Positions 7,801-63,501 of a DNA stretch of 64,000 nucleotides are shown here, one piece after another. Location: the NCBI RefSeq assembly GCF_900113715.1, contig NZ_FOQK01000019.1, positions 1-64,000 on the forward strand, written 5' to 3'. Under the pieces are notes generated by a model, which was not told the origin of the DNA, did no database searches, and was given only the letters and a program-made list of their open reading frames with translations. Made by a program: the position numbers and the translations under genes. This DNA is from Pseudoselenomonas ruminantium. GTDB lineage: Bacteria > Bacillota > Negativicutes > Selenomonadales > Selenomonadaceae. Within the stretch, counting starts at the first letter, position 1. Each line of letters starts with the position of its first letter.

Positions 7801-9477
7801 TTGTCGCAGAGTAATAATGAATTAGGGCGGAACCTGCTGGTTCTGCTGGGGATTTTCTTGGTGATGTTCATCCTGAATCAATGGATGCCGATCCATCGTG
7901 ACGATTATGATTATTCGCTGATCTGGATGACTGCGGAGCACGTCAGTTCTTTCCAGGATGTCGTGCATTCGGCATACCGCCACTACTTTTTGCATGGCGG
8001 GCGCATGGTTACGGTATTCTGCCTTGATCTCTTCCTCTGGCTGGGCAAGCTGTGGTTTGACATTGTCAATGCGCTGATGTTTGTTGCGCTGGTGGTGCTC
8101 ATGTACTTCCATGCCCGCCGCTCCGTCGAGTGGCGGCAGGAGCCGGTGCTCTTGGCGGCCACGGGGCTGCTGGCCTGGCTGGCCTTTCCGCATTTCGGCG
8201 AGGTAGCTGTCTGGAAGAGCGGTTCGACGGTCTATCTCTGGTCGGCTGTGCCGGTGGCACTCTTCTTGCTGCCGTATAATCTGTCACTGGCCAAGGGCCG
8301 TCCGGTGCTTGGCAGCTGGTGGCTGCTGCCGATGTTCCTGCTGGGCCTTATCGCTGGCTGGTCGGTGGAGAATCTGGCTGTCACTGTAGTTGCCTTGACC
8401 GCTGGCATCAGCTGGTATCTGCGCCGCCAGGGCGCTATGGCGGGCTGGATGCCTGCCGGCTGTATCGGTTCGCTGCTCGGGCTTATCGGCCTTGTGGCGG
8501 CGCCAGGCAACTTCGTCCGCTATGATGACCAGGGCAGCGGCAAGGGGATCCTTGACCATATCGGCAACCAGATTGCGGGTAATGCGGAAATGGTGCTCTA
8601 CATCCTGCCGCTCATCCTGCTCCTGCTTTGCGCTTGGCGTGTCTTCAAGATGGTGCTGGCCGAGCGTCAGGGCGTCCAGATCGCACGCGGCGGGGCAGAG
8701 CTCAGCTATCGTCAGTGGGCACTGCTGGGCTTCATCCTGCTTTTGGTCGTGTCGTATTTCAATGGCAGCTTCGTGGCCTGGACCGTGCGTGATATCCTCT
8801 ATGCCATCGTGATGGTGCCGCTGGGTCTTACCAAGCCGAAGACCATCGACCACTTTGATAATCTGTTCAAGGGCTTTGATGAGATGGCCATCTACTGGCT
8901 GACGATTTTCTTTGTCTACGCGCTGGTCAAGAAACGGCTGGGGCTGTCGGCGCCTGTCATCCGCCAGCTGGCGGAAATGGTCAAGGCGCACGAGGTTTGG
9001 CAGGCGTTCCCAGCTGTCCGTTATGCGGGGGGGCTGCTGGCCTTGGCACTGCTCAATAACCTGGTCATGCTGGCGGCGCCGACTTTCCCAGCGCGTGCGA
9101 CCTTCAGCTCGGTGGCGATGATCATCACGGCGACGATTGCCATCCTGCGCGATCCCGTGATCCGTGAGTATTTTTCCGGTCATGCACGCGTTGTGCTTGG
9201 AGCTGGCGCTGTAGGGCTGGCCTTGTTTACGCTGTCGGCAGCTATGCTTGTCACGTACACGCTGCGGCAGGAAAACGATGTGCGGCTGGCCATCGTCCAA
9301 GCGGCGGCTGCCAAGGGTGAGCCCATCGCTTATATGGACCCGATCCCGCTGAAGAATCGCGCCTTGCGTCATGTATTCTTTGCCGATTTTGACAACGGCG
9401 TGACCAAAGACGGTCTGTGCAAGTATTATGGTATCAAGGACATCAAGGTAAACATGGAGAAAGATAGCCGGCGCTGA
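7801..9477 (+). CDS. DUF6056-like polytopic membrane protein (probable surface glycosyltransferase)
   Basis: 558 residues with about 12 hydrophobic segments. A large first outer loop after the first helix carries the acidic patch HRDDYDYS (residues 33-40), typical of GtrC/GT-C-type transferases that use polyprenyl-linked sugars. The DUF6056 assignment rests on overall appearance and is moderate. It starts with TTG at 7801 after a weak AGGGGCG site, 12 bp after the GtrB-like gene, as expected for the third member of a flippase/transferase cassette. It probably adds the sugar to LPS or another surface glycan outside the membrane (inferred). Confidence 0.7.
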   Translation: MSQSNNELGRNLLVLLGIFLVMFILNQWMPIHRDDYDYSLIWMTAEHVSSFQDVVHSAYRHYFLHGGRMVTVFCLDLFLWLGKLWFDIVNALMFVALVVLMYFHARRSVEWRQEPVLLAATGLLAWLAFPHFGEVAVWKSGSTVYLWSAVPVALFLLPYNLSLAKGRPVLGSWWLLPMFLLGLIAGWSVENLAVTVVALTAGISWYLRRQGAMAGWMPAGCIGSLLGLIGLVAAPGNFVRYDDQGSGKGILDHIGNQIAGNAEMVLYILPLILLLLCAWRVFKMVLAERQGVQIARGGAELSYRQWALLGFILLLVVSYFNGSFVAWTVRDILYAIVMVPLGLTKPKTIDHFDNLFKGFDEMAIYWLTIFFVYALVKKRLGLSAPVIRQLAEMVKAHEVWQAFPAVRYAGGLLALALLNNLVMLAAPTFPARATFSSVAMIITATIAILRDPVIREYFSGHARVVLGAGAVGLALFTLSAAMLVTYTLRQENDVRLAIVQAAAAKGEPIAYMDPIPLKNRALRHVFFADFDNGVTKDGLCKYYGIKDIKVNMEKDSRR

Positions 9478-41608: not shown

Positions 41609-44407
41609 ATGAAACGCAGTGAGCGCATCTATCATTACATCCAGGAAAAGTCAGCGGCTTATACAAAAGAACGGCTGACGGGACAGGTTGGATTTGATGC
41701 GCAGGAGATTGCAGCCGCGCTCGATATCCTGCGCAATAATGTATCCAAGGAACTCAATGAACTGCATCGGCAGGACCGCATTGTCAAGTTTGCGGGCCGG
41801 CCGGTGCGTTATTTTGACAAGGAGACGCTGGAAACTTTGCTGGATACGGATTTTGGGGTGGGGCCCTGTCAGTTCCAGGATATTGGCCAGTGCCGGGAGT
41901 CCAGCGGCGAAAGTGCGGCGGATATGAATCCCTTCGAGCACCTTATCGGTGCGGACAAGAGTCTCAAGCGGCAGGTCGAGCAGGCTAAGGCGGCCATCCT
42001 TTATCCGCCGGATGGCTTGCATACATTGATTGTTGGCCAGACCGGTGTCGGCAAGACTTTGTTTGCGCATATGATGTTTGCCTATGGCAAGTCGATGCAT
42101 CGTTTTGGCAATGAGGCGCCGTTCATTACGTTCAATTGTGCGGACTATTATAACAATCCGCAGCTTTTGATTTCGCATGTGTTTGGACATATCAAAGGGG
42201 CATTCACCGGCGCAGATACAGCGAAGGCTGGTCTTGTGGAGGAGGCCGATGGCGGTGTGCTGTTCCTTGATGAGATTCATCGCTTGCCGCCGGAAGGCCA
42301 GGAGATGATTTTCTATTTCATGGATACGGGTACCTTCAACCGCCTGGGCGAGACGACGCGCAGCCGCAGGGCCAAGGTCCTGATCATCGGCGCGACGACG
42401 GAGGACCCGAACTCGGCGCTCACGCGCACCTTCGTACGCCGCATCCCGAATATCATCACGATACGGCCGCTGGCTGAGCGCACGCTGGAAGAACAGCTCG
42501 ACATACTCAAGCTGCTCTTCATGGATGAGGCCCAGCGGGTCAAGAAGCCGGTGCGCATCAGCGTGGAGTCGGTCAAAGCCTTGATCGGCAGCATCGGCAG
42601 CGGCAATGTCGGCCAGCTCAAGTCCAACATCAAGCTCTTGTGTGCCCAGGCCTTCCTCAATGGCATCGACAATCCCAATTATATCGAGGTCGATTTCAAG
42701 ATGCTGCCGGGCAACGTCAAGGACGGCCTGCTGACGCTGTCGGCCAATCGCCAGGCGCTGACGGAGCTGACGAAGTACGTGAGCGAACCGCTGGTGGTAT
42801 CGCCGCCGGGGCGGAAACTGCAGCTTGAGGATGAGAGCGGCGGCGAAGGCGGCTTCAATCTGTATCAGGTGGTCGAGGACAAGGTGGCCCTGCTGAAGGG
42901 CGAGGGCATCAGCGATGATCTCATCAAGCAGATCGTGGCGACCGATGTCAATGTCTATGTCAAAGACCTCTATAATAAGAAGCATTCGGTCAATATGACG
43001 ACGCGCGAACGCCTGCTGAAGATTGTGGACGAAGCGCTCGTGGATTTTTCGGAGCAGGTTTCGCTGTTCGTGCAGAAACGCATGAATCGCAGCTACCGCG
43101 ACCGCTTCCTCTATGCCTTCAGCCTGCATCTGTCGGCGTTCCTCAAGCGCGTCAAATCGAAAGAGTCGATCCCGTATACGGAAATCGAGGGCGCGGTGCC
43201 GCAGGATTCGCAGTGCTTGCAGGTGGCGGTCGAAATCGGCGAGATGGTCGAGAAGCACTACCATCTGAAGGTGCCGCGCAATGAGATCGAGTATATCGCC
43301 CTGCTGCTGGAGTCCTCCGATGATGATGACCTTGATGAGAAGGTAACGATTCTTGTGGCAACACATGGCAAGAGTACGGCAAGTTCGATGGTCGATGTTG
43401 CGCAGAAACTTTTCAGTTCGGCGGATATGAATATCATTGCCGTCGATATGCCGTTGGAGGTCAAGCCGCAGGCAATTTTTGACAAGACAGCGGCAATGCT
43501 GCAGGCGATGAAGTGTACCAAGGGTGTATTGATCCTGGCGGATATGGGGTCACTTTGCAATATCGGTTCGATGCTGGCAGAGAAACTCAAGATTCCAATC
43601 CGCACGCTCGATATGGTATCGACGCCACTGATTCTTGAGGCTATGCGCAAGGTGGATATTGCCGGGATGGACCTTGATAGCATCTATGAGTCCTTGCGTA
43701 ACTTTAAAGGCTATGAAGCGGTGGATTCAACGGATACCATTGCCGAAGGGGAAAATGGGCCGGAGGCTATCGTGACAATCTGTTCGACAGGACAGGGGGC
43801 AGCGCTCAAGCTCAAGTCTTTGGTGGAGGAAATCCTGCGCAATGCTGGCCGCTCTGTGGAAGTTATCCCCATCGGGCTGGTGCATATGGATGAACGCATC
43901 GAGGAAATTGCGAAAAGCTATCATATCGTAGCCGCTGTCGGGATGAAAAAGCCGCAGGTACAGGTGCCGTTCATTTCGCTCGAACAACTTATTGATGGCT
44001 CAGGTGAGCAGCTGCTGGCTGAGCTCATGCTGGATCGGAACATAAGTATGGTACCTAAAGCAAAAAGCAATCTGGTCGTGCAGAAGCTTTGCGAAGAATC
44101 TTTGCAGAAATTCCTGACCTACCTGAATCCGGCTAAGGTCATGGGGGGGTTGCTGGAGTTTGACCGGCAGCTTGAGACGGAGCTGGGAATCAAGCTTTCC
44201 AATCCGCTGCGCATCCGCATCATCGTTCATTGCGGTTGTGCGCTCGAGCGTATCGTCACGCGCAGTCCGCTGGTCTACAAGGGCGATAAATCTGCAGTTG
44301 ATACACAAAAACTCGCAGCGGTCAAAAAAGCGGCCAGAGTATTCGATAAGACACTAAAGCTCCGCTTTGATGAAGATGAGTTCTATTTTATGGCCGATAT
44401 GATATAA
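41609..44407 (+). CDS. levR: LevR/ManR-like sigma54-dependent activator with PTS regulation domains
   Basis: 932-residue activator of mannose-family PTS operons. It has an N-terminal winged helix (1-75) and an AAA+ sigma54-activating domain: Walker A GQTGVGKT (143-150), GAFTGA (197-202), Walker B LFLDEIHR (218-225). PRD1 follows (about 465-570, H507 kept, the second usual histidine replaced in IALLLES), then EIIA-Man-like (H586 in VATHGKST), EIIB-like (C725 in TICSTGQG) and PRD2 (H874 in IVHCGCA). These domains read PTS phosphorylation. It lies directly upstream of a sigma54 promoter and PTS genes, and rpoN is also in this window. Confidence 0.93.
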   Translation: MKRSERIYHYIQEKSAAYTKERLTGQVGFDAQEIAAALDILRNNVSKELNELHRQDRIVKFAGRPVRYFDKETLETLLDTDFGVGPCQFQDIGQCRESSGESAADMNPFEHLIGADKSLKRQVEQAKAAILYPPDGLHTLIVGQTGVGKTLFAHMMFAYGKSMHRFGNEAPFITFNCADYYNNPQLLISHVFGHIKGAFTGADTAKAGLVEEADGGVLFLDEIHRLPPEGQEMIFYFMDTGTFNRLGETTRSRRAKVLIIGATTEDPNSALTRTFVRRIPNIITIRPLAERTLEEQLDILKLLFMDEAQRVKKPVRISVESVKALIGSIGSGNVGQLKSNIKLLCAQAFLNGIDNPNYIEVDFKMLPGNVKDGLLTLSANRQALTELTKYVSEPLVVSPPGRKLQLEDESGGEGGFNLYQVVEDKVALLKGEGISDDLIKQIVATDVNVYVKDLYNKKHSVNMTTRERLLKIVDEALVDFSEQVSLFVQKRMNRSYRDRFLYAFSLHLSAFLKRVKSKESIPYTEIEGAVPQDSQCLQVAVEIGEMVEKHYHLKVPRNEIEYIALLLESSDDDDLDEKVTILVATHGKSTASSMVDVAQKLFSSADMNIIAVDMPLEVKPQAIFDKTAAMLQAMKCTKGVLILADMGSLCNIGSMLAEKLKIPIRTLDMVSTPLILEAMRKVDIAGMDLDSIYESLRNFKGYEAVDSTDTIAEGENGPEAIVTICSTGQGAALKLKSLVEEILRNAGRSVEVIPIGLVHMDERIEEIAKSYHIVAAVGMKKPQVQVPFISLEQLIDGSGEQLLAELMLDRNISMVPKAKSNLVVQKLCEESLQKFLTYLNPAKVMGGLLEFDRQLETELGIKLSNPLRIRIIVHCGCALERIVTRSPLVYKGDKSAVDTQKLAAVKKAARVFDKTLKLRFDEDEFYFMADMI

Positions 44408-44433
44408 AACAATAAGAAAAATATGCAATATGA

Positions 44434-44470
44434 TACACTATGGTGCGAAAATGCGCCATAGTGTATTTTG
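44434..44470 (+). terminator. Terminator of the levR-like gene
   Basis: TACACTATGGTGC pairs with GCGCCATAGTGTA (one G-T pair) and is followed by TTTTGTTT. Confidence 0.85.
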
Positions 44471-44495
44471 TTTGGGTATATTTTATTTTCTGACA

Positions 44496-44553
44496 GTATC
44501 AAAGCGTATCAAAAAGCATATGGAAGTGTATTAAATGTGTATCAATAGTATCG
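44496..44553 (+). promoter_or_regulatory. Probable upstream activator sites for the LevR-like protein
   Basis: Six GTATCA-like hexamers start at 44496, 44506, 44516 (GCATAT), 44528 (GTATTA), 44539 and 44548 (GTATCG). Spacing is 9-12 bp, so they lie on one helix face. The array lies about 75-130 bp upstream of the -24 box, where enhancer-binding proteins usually bind. Confidence 0.68.
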
Positions 44554-44627
44554 GAGAGAAAAAAACTTATCTGAAAAAACCCTGTAAAATCAAGCGAAAG
44601 AAGAATTTTTCATTTTGATACACAAAG

Positions 44628-44644
44628 TTGGCACGCGTCTTGCA
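44628..44644 (+). promoter_or_regulatory. Sigma54 (-24/-12) promoter of the PTS operon
   Basis: TTGGCACGCGTCTTGCA matches the consensus TGGCACG-N4-TTGCA fully, with GG at 44630-44631 and GC at 44642-44643. It predicts dependence on RpoN and the LevR-like activator, with a start near 44655. Confidence 0.93.
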
Positions 44645-44739
44645 ATATATAAGGGCGTAAGGCAAAAAGCCAAAAACATTCAGATTCGACCAAAAACGAA
44701 AGTGGTTATAGGTAGTTGATTCTTAAGGAGGTACTTTGA

Positions 44740-45171
44740 ATGTTTGGTATTATCGTTGGTACGCACGGAATCTTTGCACAGGAACTCGTAAAATCCTGTG
44801 AAATGATTTGCGGTGAGCAGAAAAATGTTCGTGCTGTGACGCTGGTCCCGGGTGAGGGACCGGATGATGTCGTCAAGAAATACGAGGCAGCAATTGCTGA
44901 GCTCGACTGTGAGGGCGGCGTCCTGTTCCTGAATGATCTGTTCGGTGGCAGTCCGTACAACGCTGCATGCCGTCTGGTTATCAGCAATGAGAACTACGGC
45001 ATCGTGACGGGTGTGAATCTCCCGATGCTTATCGAGATGTGCAGCGCTCAGCTGATCGATGATGGTTCGGATATCCAGGCACTGATGGAAAAAGCTGTCG
45101 AAGCCGGTAAGAACGGCACGCAGACGTTCCATGCCAGCCAGATTTCCGATGATGAGGAGGAGGACTTATAA
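44740..45171 (+). CDS. PTS mannose-family EIIA
   Basis: 143-residue cytoplasmic phosphocarrier. FGIIVGTHG places the phosphorylated histidine at H9, and FLNDLFGGSPYNAA is characteristic of the Man/Fru/Sor EIIA fold. It accepts phosphate from HPr and passes it to EIIB. AAGGAGGTAC precedes the ATG. First gene of the four-gene A-B-C-D operon; its stop overlaps the EIIB start by one base. The sugar (mannose, fructose, glucose or similar) cannot be fixed from sequence. Confidence 0.94.
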   Translation: MFGIIVGTHGIFAQELVKSCEMICGEQKNVRAVTLVPGEGPDDVVKKYEAAIAELDCEGGVLFLNDLFGGSPYNAACRLVISNENYGIVTGVNLPMLIEMCSAQLIDDGSDIQALMEKAVEAGKNGTQTFHASQISDDEEEDL

Positions 45172-45647
45172 TGAATATCGTATTAGCAAGAATTGATGAT
45201 CGTCTGATTCATGGCCAGGTTGCCACGGTCTGGTCGAAGGTAACGGGCTGCTCGCGCATCATCGTTTGCGATGATGATGTAGCCAAGGATACGATTCGTG
45301 CTACGCTTTTGAAACAGGTTGCACCGGCGGGAATCAAATCCCATGTCGTTGACCTTGACAAGGCTATCCGCGTTTATGAGAATCCGAAATATGAGAATGA
45401 GAAATGCCTGCTGCTGTTCACGAATCCGACCAGCGTTCTCTACCTGGTCGAGCATGGCGTTGACATCAAGAGCGTCAACATCGGCGGCATGAGCTTCAAA
45501 GAAGGCAAGCATCAGATTACGGGTGCTGTTTCCGTTGATGACAAGGACATCGAGGCCTTCAAGAAACTCAACGAGAAAGGCATCGAGCTTGAAATCCGTA
45601 AAGTTGATACGGACAAGAAAGTTATGCTGATGGATGTCCTTAAATAA
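45171..45647 (+). CDS. PTS mannose-family EIIB
   Basis: 158-residue phosphotransfer protein with the invariant ARIDDRLIHGQV (residues 6-17) and active-site H14. It receives phosphate from EIIA and phosphorylates the sugar carried by EIIC/EIID. LLLFTNPTSVLYLVEHG and NIGGMSFKEGKHQ fit the family. An 87-bp gap with no separate gene follows before EIIC. EIIA and EIIB are separate proteins here, as in levD/levE, not fused as in ManX. Confidence 0.95.
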   Translation: MNIVLARIDDRLIHGQVATVWSKVTGCSRIIVCDDDVAKDTIRATLLKQVAPAGIKSHVVDLDKAIRVYENPKYENEKCLLLFTNPTSVLYLVEHGVDIKSVNIGGMSFKEGKHQITGAVSVDDKDIEAFKKLNEKGIELEIRKVDTDKKVMLMDVLK

Positions 45648-45734
45648 GGATATTCTTCATATGACTGGCAGGGAGCAATTTGGGAAGGCTTCTTGTCAGG
45701 GAAAATTCATATTACATAATGGAGGGAATACACA

Positions 45735-46535
45735 ATGAGCTCTATTCAAATCCTGCTTATCTTTATCTTTGCGACAATCGCAGGCATGGGGTCCTGTCTG
45801 GACGAGATGCAGACGCATCGCCCGCTTATCGCCTGCACAGTCACTGGTCTTATTTTGGGGGATATGACGACTGGTATCATCATCGGTGGTACGCTTGAAA
45901 TGATGGCACTGGGCTGGATGAACATCGGTGCTGCAATTGCACCGGATGCTGCACTGGCTTCCGTTATTTCGACGATTCTCGTTATCGCCAGCCATCAGGA
46001 TGTGGCAACGGGTATCGCTATCGCTATGCCACTTGCTGCTGCCGGTCAGGTCCTGGCAATCATTTGTAAGACGGTTTCCGTTGTATTCCAGCATAAAGCA
46101 GACGATTACGCAGAAGAGGGGAATCTTTTTGGTATCGATCTGTGCAACTACGGCGCTCTGATCCTGCAGGGTCTGCGTGTCGGTATCCCGGCTTTGCTCG
46201 TCGCTATGACGGTCGGTACGGGTGCTGTTGAGAACATGCTCAACGCTATTCCGCCGGTCATCTCTGGTGGTCTTCAGGTTGCTGGTGGCTTCATCGTTGT
46301 TGTAGGTTATGCAATGGTCATCAACATGATGGGTGCTCAGTACCTCATGCCGTTCTTCTTCCTCGGTTTCGTTGTGGCAGCGTTCACGAACTTCAACCTC
46401 GTTGCTCTCGGTGTCATCGGTCTTGTAGCCGCTATCGTCTACATCCAGCTGAACCCGAAATATCAGGCAGTAGCCGCAGCTCCGGCAGCAGCAGCTTCCA
46501 GCTCTGACGACGATCTTGATGACGAACTTGACTAA
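45735..46535 (+). CDS. PTS mannose-family EIIC
   Basis: 266-residue integral membrane subunit forming the sugar channel together with EIID. About seven hydrophobic segments are visible. ATIAGMGSCLDEMQTHRPLI and TGLILGDMTTGIIIGGTLEM are typical of the N-terminal region of EIIC-Man/Sor. The C-terminus ends in an acidic tail (SDDDLDDELD). TGGAGGG precedes ATG 45735. Third gene of the sigma54-controlled operon. Confidence 0.95.
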   Translation: MSSIQILLIFIFATIAGMGSCLDEMQTHRPLIACTVTGLILGDMTTGIIIGGTLEMMALGWMNIGAAIAPDAALASVISTILVIASHQDVATGIAIAMPLAAAGQVLAIICKTVSVVFQHKADDYAEEGNLFGIDLCNYGALILQGLRVGIPALLVAMTVGTGAVENMLNAIPPVISGGLQVAGGFIVVVGYAMVINMMGAQYLMPFFFLGFVVAAFTNFNLVALGVIGLVAAIVYIQLNPKYQAVAAAPAAAASSSDDDLDDELD

Positions 46536-46560
46536 GCGCGAATAGAGGAGGATATACATA

Positions 46561-47385
46561 ATGGAAAAGAAAATTACTTCCAGCGATTTTTTCTGGACTT
46601 TCGTCCGTTCTAACTTCCTGCAGGCATCCTGGAACATGGAGCGTATGCAGGGCCTGGGCTACTGCTTCGGCATGGTACCAATCCTTCGCCGTCTCTATGA
46701 GGGTGAGGAACTCAAGAAAGCAATCAAACGTCACCTCGAGTTCTATAACACGCAGCCATTCGTAACGGCACCGATCATCGGTATCACGGCAGCTCTTGAG
46801 GAGAAGAAAGCCAACGGCGCACCGATCGAAGATGGTGTCATCAACGGTATCAAAGTCGGTATGATGGGCCCTCTGGCCGGTGTCGGTGACCCGATTTTCT
46901 GGGGCACGCTCCGTCCGATCACGGCAGCTCTTGGTGCATCCTTTGCACTGACGGGCAGCATCGTCGGTCCGATCCTGTTCTTCGTCCTGTTCAATGCAAT
47001 CCGTCTGGCAGTCCGCTGGTACGGCATCAAATACGGCTATGCCAAAGGTACGGACATCGTCAAAGACATCGCTGGCAACAAGCTCCAGAAGATCACGGAA
47101 GGTGCTTCCATTCTCGGTCTGTTCGTCATGGGTGCTCTCGTAAACAAATGGACGTCGGTCAATATCCCGGTTGTCGTTTCGGAAATCACGAACGCTAAAG
47201 GCGAGCATGTCGTCACGACGGTCCAGGGTATCCTTGACCAGCTCATGCCGGGTCTTGTACCGCTGCTCATGACGTTTGCCTGCATGGCACTCCTCAAGCG
47301 CAAAGTCAGCGCTATCACGATTATTTTCGGTCTGTTCGCAGTTGGTATTATCTGCTATGCCCTCGGCATCATGAACGTAAAATAA
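46561..47385 (+). CDS. PTS mannose-family EIID
   Basis: 274-residue membrane subunit unique to the mannose PTS family. SFLQASWNMERMQGLG-type sequence (here NFLQASWNMERMQGLGY), then LEFYNTQPFV and GPLAGVGDPIFWGTLRPI, are EIID hallmarks. One or two C-terminal membrane segments anchor it. GAGGAGG precedes the ATG, 25 bp after the EIIC stop. The operon ends at the terminator downstream. Confidence 0.96.
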   Translation: MEKKITSSDFFWTFVRSNFLQASWNMERMQGLGYCFGMVPILRRLYEGEELKKAIKRHLEFYNTQPFVTAPIIGITAALEEKKANGAPIEDGVINGIKVGMMGPLAGVGDPIFWGTLRPITAALGASFALTGSIVGPILFFVLFNAIRLAVRWYGIKYGYAKGTDIVKDIAGNKLQKITEGASILGLFVMGALVNKWTSVNIPVVVSEITNAKGEHVVTTVQGILDQLMPGLVPLLMTFACMALLKRKVSAITIIFGLFAVGIICYALGIMNVK

Positions 47386-47403
47386 AACAACGTTACAAAT
47401 TTG

Positions 47404-47432
47404 GGAAAGGAGCTGATTTTCGGCTCCTTTTT
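47404..47432 (+). terminator. Terminator of the PTS operon
   Basis: AAAGGAGC pairs with GGCTCCTTT (loop TGATTTTC) and is followed by a T-run. Confidence 0.85.
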
Positions 47433-47444
47433 CGGTTGAAATAC

Positions 47445-47473
47445 TTTACTTTTATGGCTGAGTTTCGTACAAT
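47445..47473 (+). promoter_or_regulatory. pfkA promoter
   Basis: TTTACT (47445-47450), 17-bp spacer, TACAAT (47468-47473). Confidence 0.65.
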
Positions 47474-47545
47474 AAAGAAGTATGGTTTGATAACAGTGAT
47501 TTATTTATTCTTAGTTTTTTTAGGTTTGGTAGGAGAGATGTTTCC

Positions 47546-48511
47546 ATGATTAAAAAAGCGATTGCGGTAATGACATCTGGCGGCGACAGCCCGGGAATGA
47601 ATGCGGCTGCCCGTGCAGTAGTCCGCACGGCATTGTATGAGGGTGTAGAGGTTTATGGCATCAATAACGGCTATCAGGGTATGGTCGACGATGATATCGT
47701 CAAGCTCACGAGCCGCAGCGTCAGCGATCTCATCCAGCGCGGTGGTACGTTCCTCGGCACGGCCCGCTGCATGGAGTTCAAGACGCCGGAAGGCCGCAAG
47801 AAGGGCTTTGACAACTTGATGAAACACGGCATCGAAGGTCTCGTAATCATCGGTGTCGACGGCAGCCTTACGGGCGGCAGCCTGCTCTCCAAAGAAACGG
47901 GTATGCCGATTGTTGGCCTGCCGGGAACGATTGATAATGATGTTTGGGGCATGGATTATACGATTGGCTGCGATACGGCTGCCAACACGATTGTCGATGC
48001 TATCAACAAGCTGCGCGATACGGCTTCGGCTCATCGCCGTATCATGCTCGTCGAGGTCATGGGCCGCAACTCTGGCTGGCTGGCTATGATGGCTGGCATC
48101 GCTGGCGGTGCGGAGTATGTCCTCGTTCCGGAGGTAAAATACGATCTCGATGAGATGTGTCATGAACTCAAGGCTATGTATGATGCTGGCAAACGCTACA
48201 GCATCATCGTCGTTGCCGAGGGCGCTGGCTCGGCTGTGGGCCTTGGCCAGGTCGTCGAGGAGAAGACGGGCATCGATACGCGCGTATCGGTACTTGGCCA
48301 TATCCAGCGTGGGGGATCGCCGACGGTCGAGGACCGCATGAAGGCTTCGATGCTGGGTGAGAAGGCTGCACTGGCTATCATTTCGGGTGCGACGAATGTT
48401 GTCTTCGGTTTCAATGAGGGCAAGGTGGTAAGCGTCAACCTGTTTGATGCCGTCAATAATCAGAAAACGTTGGATCCAGAGCTTGTACGCCTGGCTCGTG
48501 TGCTCGCATAA
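47546..48511 (+). CDS. pfkA: ATP-dependent 6-phosphofructokinase
   Basis: Phosphorylates fructose 6-phosphate to the 1,6-bisphosphate. The 321-residue enzyme has the ATP-binding TSGGDSPGMNAA (residues 9-20), the catalytic PGTIDNDVWGMDYTIG and VMGRNSGWLA. In the nucleotide-binding loop the sequence is GVDGSLTGG where most ATP-PFKs have GGDGS. Gly at the selectivity position still points to ATP rather than pyrophosphate. AGGAGAG precedes ATG 47546. It is next to the PTS operon but has its own promoter and terminator. Confidence 0.96.
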   Translation: MIKKAIAVMTSGGDSPGMNAAARAVVRTALYEGVEVYGINNGYQGMVDDDIVKLTSRSVSDLIQRGGTFLGTARCMEFKTPEGRKKGFDNLMKHGIEGLVIIGVDGSLTGGSLLSKETGMPIVGLPGTIDNDVWGMDYTIGCDTAANTIVDAINKLRDTASAHRRIMLVEVMGRNSGWLAMMAGIAGGAEYVLVPEVKYDLDEMCHELKAMYDAGKRYSIIVVAEGAGSAVGLGQVVEEKTGIDTRVSVLGHIQRGGSPTVEDRMKASMLGEKAALAIISGATNVVFGFNEGKVVSVNLFDAVNNQKTLDPELVRLARVLA

Positions 48512-58792: not shown

Positions 58793-60697
58793 ATGATAAT
58801 CACAATCGAGAATTTTGCCAAGAGCTATGGGGAAAAGCAGCTGTTCCAGGGTGTTGGCTTCAGCATGGACGAGGGCGACAAGGTCGGCATCGTCGGCATC
58901 AACGGCACTGGCAAGTCGACGTTCCTCAAGGCGATTGCTGGGCTCACGCCGGTGGATGAGGGCTCAATGGTCACGATGAAGGGGCTGCGCATCGAGTATC
59001 TGGCCCAGGATAAGGTCTTTGAGCCGGAAAACACCGTCCTGATGGAGGTGTTCCGGGGCATGACGCCTCTGATGCAGGCACTGCGCGGCTATGAGCTGGC
59101 ATTGGCGGAATCGGCGAAGCATCCCGAGGACAAGGGGGTCCAGCAGGCGATCATGACCTATACGGCCAAGATCGATGAGCTGGATGGCTGGCAGATCGAA
59201 AGTGCCGCCAAGACGGTGCTCACGAAGCTAGGCATCGGCGACTACACGGCGAAAGCCGGCACGCTCTCGGGCGGCCAGCAGAAGCGGCTGGCCCTGGCGA
59301 CCGCCCTCATCCAGCCCTGCGATCTGCTGCTGCTGGATGAGCCGACGAACCATCTTGACAGCGAGACGATCGTCTGGCTGGAGGAGTATCTAAAGGGACA
59401 GAAATGTGCGGTGCTGATGGTCACGCATGACCGGTACTTCCTCGATCATACGGCGACGAAGATTCTCGAGCTCGACAAGGGGAAGGCCTATACTTACAGC
59501 GGCAATTATTCGGAATTCCTCGAGCAGAAGGCTGCGCGCATCGAGCGTGAACAGGCCAGTGAGCAGAAGCGGCAGAATTTCCTGCGCAATGAGCTCAAGT
59601 GGCTGCGCCGTGGTGCGCAGGCGCGCTCGACCAAGCAGAAGGCCCGCATCGAGCGCTATGAGGAAGTGAAGAACCAAAGTGTCGATCTTGACCGGGGCAC
59701 GGTCGAGATCGGTCTGGCCGGCAGCCGTCTGGGCCGCACGGTCATTGAGCTTGATCATGTCCACTACGAGGTGGACGGGCGAACCATCATCAAGGATTTT
59801 TCCTATACCTTGCTTCGCAATGACCGTGTGGGCATACTCGGTCCTAATGGCACGGGCAAGTCTACCCTGCTCAACATCTTGGCAGGGCGGCTGCAGCCGA
59901 CAAGTGGTACGGTTACCATTGGACAGACGGTCAAGATCGGTTATTTCACGCAGCGCAGCGTGGAGATGGACGAACGCCTGCGGGCTATCGAGTACATTCA
60001 GGAGGCGGCCCATCACATCACACTGGCGGATGGCACGCGGATTTCGGCTTCGCAGCTCATGGAGCGCTTCCTGTTCCCTGGCAATCTCCAATGGACGCCA
60101 ATCGCCCGGCTCTCAGGTGGTGAGAAGCGGCGATTGTATCTTTTGCGCGTGCTTATGGAGGAGCCGAATGTGCTGCTGCTTGACGAGCCGACCAATGATC
60201 TTGATCTTGAGACCATGGCGGTGCTCGAAGCCTTCATCGATGATTTCCGCGGGGCTATCGTATTTGTTTCCCATGACCGCTTTTTCGTCGACCGGCTTGC
60301 TGACAAGGTGTTTGCCTATGAAGCGGACGGCAGCCTGACGATGTATGCGGGCGGCTATTCCTACTATCAGGAAAAGCTGGCGGCAAGGGCCGCTGCGGGT
60401 CCGGAAGCGCCGGTCCATGTGACGCAGGCGGTGAAGGACCCGGTCAAGAGTGCGCCGCGCACGGAGACAAAGCCAAAGCTGACCTTCAAGGAGCAGAAAG
60501 AGTATGCAGAAATCGAGGGCATCATTGCGAGCAAGGAAGGCGAGCTCAAGGTGGTGCAGCTGCAGATGGAGCAGCATGCAGCCGACTATGGCCGCTTGAA
60601 CGAACTGAGCAAGGAGGAGGGCCGGCTGCAGGCGGAGCTTGAGCATTTGATGGAGCGCTGGGCATATCTGGAGGAAATTGCTGAAAATCAGCAATGA
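58793..60697 (+). CDS. uup: ABC-F ATPase, Uup type
   Basis: 634-residue soluble protein with two ATPase domains: GINGTGKST with LSGGQQKRLALA, and GPNGTGKST with LSGGEKRRLYLL. Between them lies the ABC-F linker (RNELKWLRRGAQARSTKQK). The C-terminal ~80 residues form a charged coiled coil (FKEQKEYAEIEGIIASKEGE and on), the mark of the Uup branch, which acts on ribosomes and has been linked to DNA structure. TAGGAAG precedes ATG 58793. TATAAT at 58753-58758 may be its promoter, but I see no good -35 box. Confidence 0.92.
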   Translation: MIITIENFAKSYGEKQLFQGVGFSMDEGDKVGIVGINGTGKSTFLKAIAGLTPVDEGSMVTMKGLRIEYLAQDKVFEPENTVLMEVFRGMTPLMQALRGYELALAESAKHPEDKGVQQAIMTYTAKIDELDGWQIESAAKTVLTKLGIGDYTAKAGTLSGGQQKRLALATALIQPCDLLLLDEPTNHLDSETIVWLEEYLKGQKCAVLMVTHDRYFLDHTATKILELDKGKAYTYSGNYSEFLEQKAARIEREQASEQKRQNFLRNELKWLRRGAQARSTKQKARIERYEEVKNQSVDLDRGTVEIGLAGSRLGRTVIELDHVHYEVDGRTIIKDFSYTLLRNDRVGILGPNGTGKSTLLNILAGRLQPTSGTVTIGQTVKIGYFTQRSVEMDERLRAIEYIQEAAHHITLADGTRISASQLMERFLFPGNLQWTPIARLSGGEKRRLYLLRVLMEEPNVLLLDEPTNDLDLETMAVLEAFIDDFRGAIVFVSHDRFFVDRLADKVFAYEADGSLTMYAGGYSYYQEKLAARAAAGPEAPVHVTQAVKDPVKSAPRTETKPKLTFKEQKEYAEIEGIIASKEGELKVVQLQMEQHAADYGRLNELSKEEGRLQAELEHLMERWAYLEEIAENQQ

Positions 60698-60732
60698 CTT
60701 ATAAATTCAAGAGGTAAAAGGAGATAGTAACC

Positions 60733-62022
60733 ATGGCATTCGACAAGAATCTATTTGAGGACATCATCCGGGAATTCACGGTAAATGGCGACCAGCTGCA
60801 GGAAATCGCGGCTGACTTCCGCTATGACCTGGTCAAGGGGCTGGAAAACCCTGACGAGTCGTCGCTGCGCATGCTCAAATCGTATGTAGGCTTGCCAACC
60901 GGCAAGGAGACGGGCGAGTACCTCGCGCTGGATTTCGGTGGCACGAACGTGCGTGTATTGCGTATCCGCCTTGAGGGCGCAGGCAAGTTTGAGGTAGTCA
61001 AGAAGGTTGCCAAGCCGTTGCGCGTGGAAGGCGTCTATGATTTTGTCGGTGCTGGTTCGACGGCTGAGCAGATGTTTGACTTCATTGCGGAGCTCGTGGA
61101 TGAGGCTGTGGAAGGCGACCATGAGACGAAGTATCTGCTGGGCCATACGTTCTCGTTCCCCTCGGAGCAGACGGATCTCTACAATGCCAAGCTCATCATC
61201 TGGACGAAGGAATTCGCGACGGCTGGTGTCGAGGGCGAGGTCGTCAACGACCTGCTCAAGGCAGCTTTGCATCGCCAGGGCATCGACAATGTCGAGCCGA
61301 CGGCGGTCATCAACGATACGGTAGCTGTACTGCTGGCCGCAGCCTACAAGCAGCCGGACATCTACATCGGCTCGATCTATGCGACGGGGCATAATACCTG
61401 CTATCTTGAGCCCTATGCTGACAGTGCCGCTGAGCCGATGATCCTGAACCTTGAGTCGGGCGGTTTCATGAAGCTGGCAACGAACCGCTTTGATGTCGAG
61501 TACGACAAGAATTCGGAGAAGCCGGGTGAGCAGCGTCTCGAGAAGATGGTTTCGGGCCGCTACATGGGCGAGCTCTTCGGCATGGCCATGGCAGAGCTGC
61601 TGGGCGAGAAAGGCAAGTCGTATGGCTTCACCAGCATCGATATGAGCAATATCATTGTCGATGAGAGTGCCAAGCGCGCGCAGGTCGCGGAGATCGTAGC
61701 CGCGAAAACGGGCAAGACCTTGGGCGCTGAGGATTGTGAGCTTGTCCAGCAGCTGGCATCGGCACTGGTTGTCCGTTCGGCACGCCTGGTAACGGCTTCC
61801 TTTGTTGGCATCATCTGGCAGCAGGCTGGCAAGGGCAAACCGCAGAAACAGCATATTGCCATTGACGGCTCAGTCTATGAGAAGATGCCGCTGGCTAAGG
61901 AGAATATCATGCGTGCCTTGTCGGAGCTTTTGGGCGAGGATGCAGCTGAAATCGATACAGTACTGGAAAATGGCGGCTCGGGGCTTGGTGCAGCTATTGC
62001 AGCCGCAATGTCTCAGAAATAA
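60733..62022 (+). CDS. Eukaryote-type hexokinase
   Basis: Phosphorylates glucose or related hexoses. The 429-residue protein shows the hexokinase_1/2 order of motifs: YLALDFGGTNVRVLRI (63-78), HTFSFPSEQ (138-146), LIIWTKEF (154-161), INDTVAVLLAAAY with catalytic D195, and YATGHNTCYLE (216-226) where eukaryotes have GTGTNACY. The usual bacterial ROK or Glk signatures are absent. The family is typical of eukaryotes and rare in bacteria, so transfer is possible; codon usage looks native. AAAGGAG precedes the ATG. It sits between uup and rpoN. Confidence 0.9.
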   Translation: MAFDKNLFEDIIREFTVNGDQLQEIAADFRYDLVKGLENPDESSLRMLKSYVGLPTGKETGEYLALDFGGTNVRVLRIRLEGAGKFEVVKKVAKPLRVEGVYDFVGAGSTAEQMFDFIAELVDEAVEGDHETKYLLGHTFSFPSEQTDLYNAKLIIWTKEFATAGVEGEVVNDLLKAALHRQGIDNVEPTAVINDTVAVLLAAAYKQPDIYIGSIYATGHNTCYLEPYADSAAEPMILNLESGGFMKLATNRFDVEYDKNSEKPGEQRLEKMVSGRYMGELFGMAMAELLGEKGKSYGFTSIDMSNIIVDESAKRAQVAEIVAAKTGKTLGAEDCELVQQLASALVVRSARLVTASFVGIIWQQAGKGKPQKQHIAIDGSVYEKMPLAKENIMRALSELLGEDAAEIDTVLENGGSGLGAAIAAAMSQK

Positions 62023-62078: not shown

Positions 62079-63440
62079 ATGCAAGCAGAACAATCACTGA
62101 ATATGAATCTCTCGCAGCATCTGGCAATGACGATGAAGATGCAGCAAGCCATCCAGATCTTGCAGCTTTCTGCGCAGGATCTGCGGGCGGAGATCGAAAA
62201 AGAATATCTGGAGAATCCTGCGCTGGAAATGGACTATGGCGATGGGGCGCCGGCTGACGGCGAACTGCTGCAAGCGGACAATCTGTCGCGGCTCCGTGAC
62301 TATCTCGGGGAGGAAAATGGCTCAGCGGGGTATTTCACCGATGAGCAGGAACATGGCGCTGAGGCGGCTGAGGCCGAAGTGCTGACGCTGGAGGACGAGC
62401 TCCTTGAGCAGGTGAAGTTCACCTTCCACAAGGTGGAGGAGCGCGCGATAGCTACGTTCATCGTCGGCTCGATCGATGAGCGGGGCTATCTGGTGGTGCC
62501 GCTGGCAGAAATCGCCCGGGCGATGCAGGCCACGCTGGCAGAAGTCGAAGCTGTCCTGCAGCAGGTTCAGTTGTTCGAACCTGCTGGCGTGGGGGCTCGC
62601 GACCTTGCAGAATGCTTGCGTCTGCAAGCGCAGCGTCAGGGCATCTATGAGGGGCTGGTGGCAGCAGTCATCGATCATCACCTCGACGATGTGGCGGAAG
62701 CGCGCATCAAGGAGATTGCCGCGGCTGAGCATTGCCGTCCGCAGGAGGTGCAGCTGGCTGTCGACATCGTCCGCCGGCTGGATCCGAAGCCGGGCGCTGC
62801 TTACGGCGGCGAAGCAGCGGCGTTCATCACGCCTGATGTGCTCGTGCAGGAAATCGACGGGGATTATCGTGTGAGCTTCAATGATAACTATGTGCCTCAG
62901 CTGCGGATCTCGGCGGCTTATCAGCATGCCGAAGGCTTCGATGCTGAGACGCGCAAGTATATCACGCAGCGCTTGAATGCGGCTGCGTGGCTCATCAACA
63001 GCATCGAGCAGCGGCGGACGACGATCCGTCATGTGGTCGAGGAGATCCTGCGGCGGCAGCCGGAATTCATGGCACAGGGCAAGAACGCCCTGCGTCCGAT
63101 GACGATGAAGGATGTGGCTGATGCCATTGGTGTCCATGAGTCGACGGTCAGCCGGGCCGTAGCCAACAAATATGTGCAGCTGCCCAATGGCATCATGGCG
63201 CTGCGGCGGTTCTTCTCGGCGAACCTGGCTAAGAGTGGCAGTGGCGAAGATTTTGCAGCTGTGCAGGCCAAGACGGCCATTGAGGAACTGATAAAGGGCG
63301 AAGACCCGCATCGGCCGCTTAGCGACCAGAAACTCTGCGAGCTGCTCAAAGAACGTCAAATGGATATTTCACGCCGGACGGTTATGAAATACCGCGAGCA
63401 GTTAGGGTATCCATCATCGGTCAAGCGTAAACGCTATTGA
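62079..63440 (+). CDS. rpoN: RNA polymerase sigma-54 factor
   Basis: 453-residue alternative sigma factor that requires AAA+ activators. The Gln-rich N-terminal region I (LAMTMKMQQAIQILQLS, residues 15-31) contacts activators. The core-binding region follows, then the helix-turn-helix VADAIGVHESTVSRAVANKY and the RpoN box SRRTVMKYREQLGYPSS near the C-terminus, which reads the -24 element. The window contains a matching promoter (44628-44644) and activator. A GAAGGAG site precedes ATG 62079. Followed by a strong terminator. Confidence 0.96.
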   Translation: MQAEQSLNMNLSQHLAMTMKMQQAIQILQLSAQDLRAEIEKEYLENPALEMDYGDGAPADGELLQADNLSRLRDYLGEENGSAGYFTDEQEHGAEAAEAEVLTLEDELLEQVKFTFHKVEERAIATFIVGSIDERGYLVVPLAEIARAMQATLAEVEAVLQQVQLFEPAGVGARDLAECLRLQAQRQGIYEGLVAAVIDHHLDDVAEARIKEIAAAEHCRPQEVQLAVDIVRRLDPKPGAAYGGEAAAFITPDVLVQEIDGDYRVSFNDNYVPQLRISAAYQHAEGFDAETRKYITQRLNAAAWLINSIEQRRTTIRHVVEEILRRQPEFMAQGKNALRPMTMKDVADAIGVHESTVSRAVANKYVQLPNGIMALRRFFSANLAKSGSGEDFAAVQAKTAIEELIKGEDPHRPLSDQKLCELLKERQMDISRRTVMKYREQLGYPSSVKRKRY

Positions 63441-63468
63441 TATAGAGTTTCCATAAAGTCAAACTTTA

Positions 63469-63501
63469 ACGGTAGTAGCAAATTTGCTGCTACCGTTTTT
63501 T
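63469..63501 (+). terminator. Terminator of rpoN
   Basis: ACGGTAGTAGCAAA pairs with TTTGCTGCTACCGT (one G-T pair) and is followed by six T. Confidence 0.95.

Follow-up and report, generated by a model that had tools for sequence, protein, structure and literature searches.

The window, the whole stretch of DNA analyzed here (64,000 nucleotides of contig NZ_FOQK01000019.1 of Pseudoselenomonas ruminantium), carries at 60733..62022 of the forward strand an intact open reading frame (ORF) of 429 amino acids, with its ATG at 60733 and its stop at 62022, which we identify below as a hexokinase gene. A Shine–Dalgarno-like AAGGAG (60718..60723, +), read by eye, lies 9 nt before the ATG. The ORF is preceded, at a distance of 35 bp, by a gene for an ABC-F family ATPase of 634 amino acids (58793..60697, +; Pfam and NCBIfam matches), for which “ribosomal protection-like ABC-F” is the only one of the 25 NCBIfam models listed whose cut-off is exceeded. 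Downstream, after 56 bp, it adjoins rpoN, the gene for sigma-54 (62079..63440, +; TIGR02395, 8.9e-131), as the original prediction had it. The terminator scan placed a terminator-like hairpin of 13 pairs, followed by TTTTATG, behind rpoN (63468..63497, +), and the contig ends at 65950, downstream of rpoN.

The ORF, its Pfam matches, the alignments, and the predicted structure all assign the protein to the eukaryote-type hexokinase family, in agreement with the original prediction. Both Pfam halves of the family occur in order, together span residues 9–426, and score far above their cut-offs: Hexokinase_1 (PF00349) covers residues 9–205 (E = 1.6e-53; 181.9 bits against a cut-off of 24.3), and Hexokinase_2 (PF03727) covers residues 212–426 (E = 6.1e-47; 160.5 bits against a cut-off of 24). 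The predicted lack of bacterial glucokinase signatures was borne out as well, neither the ROK family (PF00480) nor Glk (PF02685) being among the Pfam matches at E ≤ 0.001. ROK glucokinases and Glk catalyze the same reaction as hexokinase, and all 3 share the same broad actin-like ATPase fold. No NCBIfam model matched the protein at E ≤ 0.001, and for this reason public annotation may name bacterial hexokinases of this kind poorly. The 46 distinct PDB sequences matching the protein, with human hexokinase 2 at the top, are all labeled hexokinase, glucokinase, or “phosphotransferase.” An AlphaFold model, for which an alignment of 42 bacterial sequences served as input, has a mean pLDDT of 94.9 and superposes on hexokinases and glucokinases of animals, plants, yeast, and Apicomplexa with Z scores of 41.4 to 45.6 over 410 to 426 residues among the 50 structural matches listed, every one of which is a hexokinase or a glucokinase.

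Residue-level comparisons were based on 2 alignments (A1 and A2) of 45 and 42 hand-picked sequences. Residues S141, T158, K159, N194, D195, N221, E241, Q267, and E270, which we take to be those serving in catalysis and sugar contact, are the same as in the human HK2 and rat HK1 domains, and 6 of them, listed as the catalytic residues of the window protein (Asp195, Lys159, Asn194, Asn221, Glu241, and Glu270), are invariant across the 45 bacterial sequences. The window protein therefore has its catalytic and sugar-contact residues, as well as its Pfam halves and fold, in common with the eukaryotic hexokinases (human HK1/HK2, glucokinase/HK4, yeast Hxk1/Hxk2, and plant HXK1/HXK6). It differs from them, however, in several respects: at 429 amino acids, it is about 29–32% identical to the human and rat domains, is 5 residues shorter after the NxE(W/S)GxF motif, has ESGGF and ATGHN where the eukaryotic enzymes have EWGAF and GTG[ST]N, and has no second domain or membrane anchor that we could see.

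Eukaryote-type hexokinases are not confined to the Negativicutes among bacteria. A protein of Parabacteroides distasonis named “hexokinase” matches both Pfam halves, as the window protein does, but is only 29% identical to it in the alignment; in a tree of 55 proteins, its branch is long and separate from the Negativicutes group. From this protein and the general background on the family, we infer that the Bacteroides hexokinases belong to the same Pfam family. Active enzymes under the name hexokinase have been published from bacteria before: the Bacteroidales hexokinase is likewise a bacterial enzyme of that name with activity on glucose and mannose, the purified Bacteroides caccae protein (INE72_RS21610) preferring glucose, mannose, and glucosamine according to PMC11300592, which also cites deletion-mutant work on B. 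fragilis HexA (Brigham & Malamy 2005). What is new here is one more member only, the family itself being already known. Among the papers searched on bacterial eukaryote-type hexokinases, Negativicutes hexokinase, and Selenomonas sugar uptake, we found no characterized Negativicutes hexokinase; one paper on Negativicutes reports a Megasphaera phylotype without hexokinase.

Judging from their spacing and common strand, the ABC-F, hexokinase, and rpoN genes probably share one transcript, and the hairpin behind rpoN suggests that they can do so. Taken alone, the hairpin is weak, since shuffling predicts 4.7 terminator-like sites and the scan gave 5; in the promoter and terminator scans alike, the number of sites was close to that for shuffled sequence. 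The idea that the hexokinase gene begins a glycolytic operon, with cggR-gap expected behind rpoN, was considered and rejected, the next gene being, by eye, an NADH-dehydrogenase-like ORF. Among 80 Selenomonadaceae loci, rpoN lies directly downstream of the hexokinase gene in 37 and is absent in 40, the other 3 being too short, and an ABC-F gene lies upstream in 24. Since rpoN adjoins the hexokinase gene in only 37 of the 77 assessable loci, this neighbor says little about function. Neither the ABC-F gene nor rpoN was seen at hexokinase loci from other families within about 1.5 kb on each side, which makes the arrangement a local habit.

Farther upstream in the window, the region 41609–48511 (+) is likely a sigma-54-driven sugar operon. 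It opens with a LevR-like sigma-54 activator (41609..44407, +), recognized by its Sigma54_activat, two PRD, and EIIA-man domain matches. A perfect sigma-54 −24/−12 promoter-like site, TGGCACGCGTCTTGCA (44629..44644, +; pattern scan), stands ahead of a mannose-type phosphotransferase system (PTS) cluster of 4 ORFs (44740..47385, +; IIB and IIC domain matches), which comprises a first ORF at 44740–45171 (+), IIB at 45171–45647 (+; PF03830), IIC at 45735–46535 (+; PF03609), and a last ORF at 46561–47385 (+); a phosphofructokinase gene follows at 47546–48511 (+; PF00365). The window contains 2 such promoter-like sites against 0.07 expected. Genome-wide there are only 5, and the reversed control pattern gives 3. 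The second perfect match, at 8255–8270 (+), falls inside an ORF (7801–9474) and is therefore perhaps due to chance. Cotranscription of rpoN with the hexokinase gene, while sigma-54 drives the mannose PTS, would be suggestive, no more.

To what extent the family is rare in bacteria, as the original prediction held, depends on where one looks. Rarity was confirmed in the control genomes, none of the 14 carrying the family, but not in the class Negativicutes, in which PF03727 exceeds its cut-off in 261 of 380 genomes and 70 of 102 genera. Hand counts of the listing put the hexokinase family in 29 families of the class and in 178 of 189 Selenomonadaceae genomes. In the phylum sample of 398 genomes, 38 have a match at E ≤ 0.001 and 35 have one above the cut-off, 21 of these 35 lying outside the class; other phyla are represented by 3 plasmid-borne sequences only. 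The hexokinase family is patchy across bacteria and the rule in the class Negativicutes.

If the window protein works as other members of its family, its 2 lobes would close on the sugar, Asp195 would deprotonate the 6-hydroxyl of the sugar, and transfer of the gamma phosphate from Mg-ATP would yield hexose 6-phosphate. Its likely substrates would be glucose and mannose, and perhaps glucosamine and fructose, present unphosphorylated inside the cell, for example, following the breakdown of oligosaccharides or glycogen or uptake independent of the PTS. The genome encodes one PF00349 protein. A check for other glucokinases, proposed alongside the original prediction, yielded no PF02685 match anywhere in the genome and 3 ROK-family matches, 2 of which are kinase-sized ORFs. 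Neither ROK kinase reaches the cut-off of any NCBIfam model listed; for each, the 2 best models include ROK glucokinase (TIGR00744), whose scores of 154 and 158 bits fall short of its cut-off of 260, and the CxCGxxGCxE motif was not seen by eye in either translation. Given the lack of PF02685 and the low scores of the ROK kinases, the main ATP-dependent kinase for glucose and mannose in this genome is probably the window hexokinase, acting on non-PTS sugars. The job first proposed for it, ATP-dependent phosphorylation of hexoses not imported by the PTS, thus probably stands, with the proviso that the 2 ROK kinases could, by sequence, be glucose kinases too. The genome is also rich in PTS (13 EIIC matches of PF02378 and 2 of the mannose-type PF03609), so that much glucose may never need hexokinase.

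The last point could be taken further, with the window hexokinase serving chiefly for fructose, mannose, or glucosamine, and glucose being left to the PTS and a ROK enzyme. We regard this as rather unlikely because the glucose-contact residues are conserved in the alignment, and because known members of the family, broad as they are, as a rule accept glucose. The many PTS and the 2 ROK kinases in the genome nevertheless speak for such a division, as does the Bacteroides family member, which takes mannose and glucosamine besides glucose (PMC11300592).

A different route to altered substrate choice had been seen in the glucose-loop motif, whose departure from GTGTNACY was thought capable of shifting sugar specificity. 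The departure itself is real: the window hexokinase has ATGHNTCY at residues 217–224. The motif was counted in 145 distinct sequences, left from 153 matches once 8 that repeated others or duplicated the window protein had been removed. Every one of the 85 from Selenomonadaceae has ATGHN, ATGQN, or ATGYN; of the 60 others, 59 have GTGxN, and the remaining one is a 90-aa fragment without the motif. Within this sequence set, A for G is a fixed family-level trait of the Selenomonadaceae. Clean as this separation is (A in 85/85, G in 59/59 others having the motif), it is very unlikely to mark an altered sugar specificity. The sugar-contact residues, both near the motif and elsewhere, are conserved in the alignment and do not include the changed position, so that the change lends no support to a shift; the position before the motif Asn is variable across the whole family (H, Q, F, Y, T, I, M, or S). 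In solved structures, the T-G of the loop points toward the phosphates of ATP and its N toward the sugar, which would make an effect on ATP handling likelier than one on sugar choice.

The ancestry of the gene was assessed in 2 trees, one of 55 proteins, with animal hexokinases as the sole eukaryotic sequences, and one of 40 proteins, which combines 36 of those 55 rows with 4 further eukaryotic sequences, thereby covering animals, yeast, and plants, and leaves out the 2 longest bacterial rows (L146 from P. distasonis and L148 from Catenovulum adriaticum); the program flagged several rows for long branches or atypical composition. In both trees, the window hexokinase is nested within the Selenomonadaceae, together with S. 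ruminantium HD4 and Mitsuokella, and not with eukaryotes. The 7 eukaryotic sequences of the 40-protein tree form one clade (support 100/100), which sits with the Negativicutes/Bacillota group, and a branch with 100/100 support parts both from a second bacterial group. A clade uniting the window protein with the 7 eukaryotic sequences was rejected (delta lnL 85; p-AU = 2.8e-77), which places the window hexokinase outside the eukaryotic hexokinase clade by descent, whereas a clade of the whole Selenomonadaceae group with the eukaryotes was not rejected (p-AU = 0.198). In the 55-protein tree, with its animal sequences only, the type-I bacterial sequences stand apart from eukaryotes with 89/94 support; their monophyly was neither shown nor rejected by the topology test (p-AU = 0.454). 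Pairwise distances of hexokinase and rpoN are correlated (r = 0.88 over 38 loci; 0/2000 permutations), as expected for vertical inheritance, although rpoN is also a physical neighbor.

The horizontal transfer implied by the original prediction is refuted for any recent event by both trees and the rejected clade, as well as by the presence of the family in 261 of the 380 class genomes. That the gene reached Selenomonas from any eukaryote, for example, from rumen protozoa or fungi, is extremely improbable: the family is known above all from eukaryotes, it is missing from the 14 control genomes, and the p-AU of 0.198 would suit an older event, but the 7 eukaryotic sequences, from animals, yeast, and plants, keep to a clade of their own, the family extends through 29 families of the class and 21 further phylum genomes above the cut-off, and identity is 84% to other Selenomonadaceae, reaching 99% in the closest matches, which are Selenomonas ruminantium genomes, against about 29–32% to the human and rat domains. 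We therefore favor, with a probability of about 0.93, the reading that the window gene encodes a single-domain ATP-dependent hexokinase of approximately 47 kDa that is vertically inherited in the Selenomonadaceae and widespread in the class.

A vertically inherited hexokinase of this kind is an ordinary gene, its product probably being the usual glucose kinase in bacteria of the Selenomonas type, and the useful part of the analysis is the count, because the spread of the family in bacteria bears on the source of the hexokinases of animals, plants, and yeast. A 2025 review (PMC12696579) traces hexokinase back to ancestral eukaryotes, with which the wide spread of the “eukaryotic” enzyme in Bacillota fits awkwardly; the direction is not given by the present trees. 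If the root lies between the 2 bacterial groups of the 40-protein tree, eukaryotic hexokinase is nested in bacterial diversity. It is conceivable, albeit somewhat doubtful, that the “eukaryotic” hexokinase is an old bacterial family that eukaryotes took from a lineage near the Negativicutes/Bacillota group. A well-sampled tree that includes the bacterial hexokinases would make the origin of the eukaryotic enzyme testable.

The searches also brought up several unusual relatives. In the class-wide search, 2 hexokinase matches were found in many genomes of genus g4, and each of the 7 genomes of genus g282 (G655–G661) has 3; functions could be split between the copies in such genomes. At another locus of the same class (L155; G296:C28:9500-14000), a hexokinase relative is apparently broken into an ORF of 352 amino acids and an overlapping one of 90 amino acids, in a genome that carries another copy of the family. 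Two of the 3 plasmid-borne relatives are annotated as “hypothetical protein.” On the plasmid of Catenovulum adriaticum, the hexokinase-family gene is directly flanked by the gene for a trehalase-family glycosidase on one side and that for an AGE-family epimerase on the other, an arrangement that suggests glucose from trehalose as the substrate.
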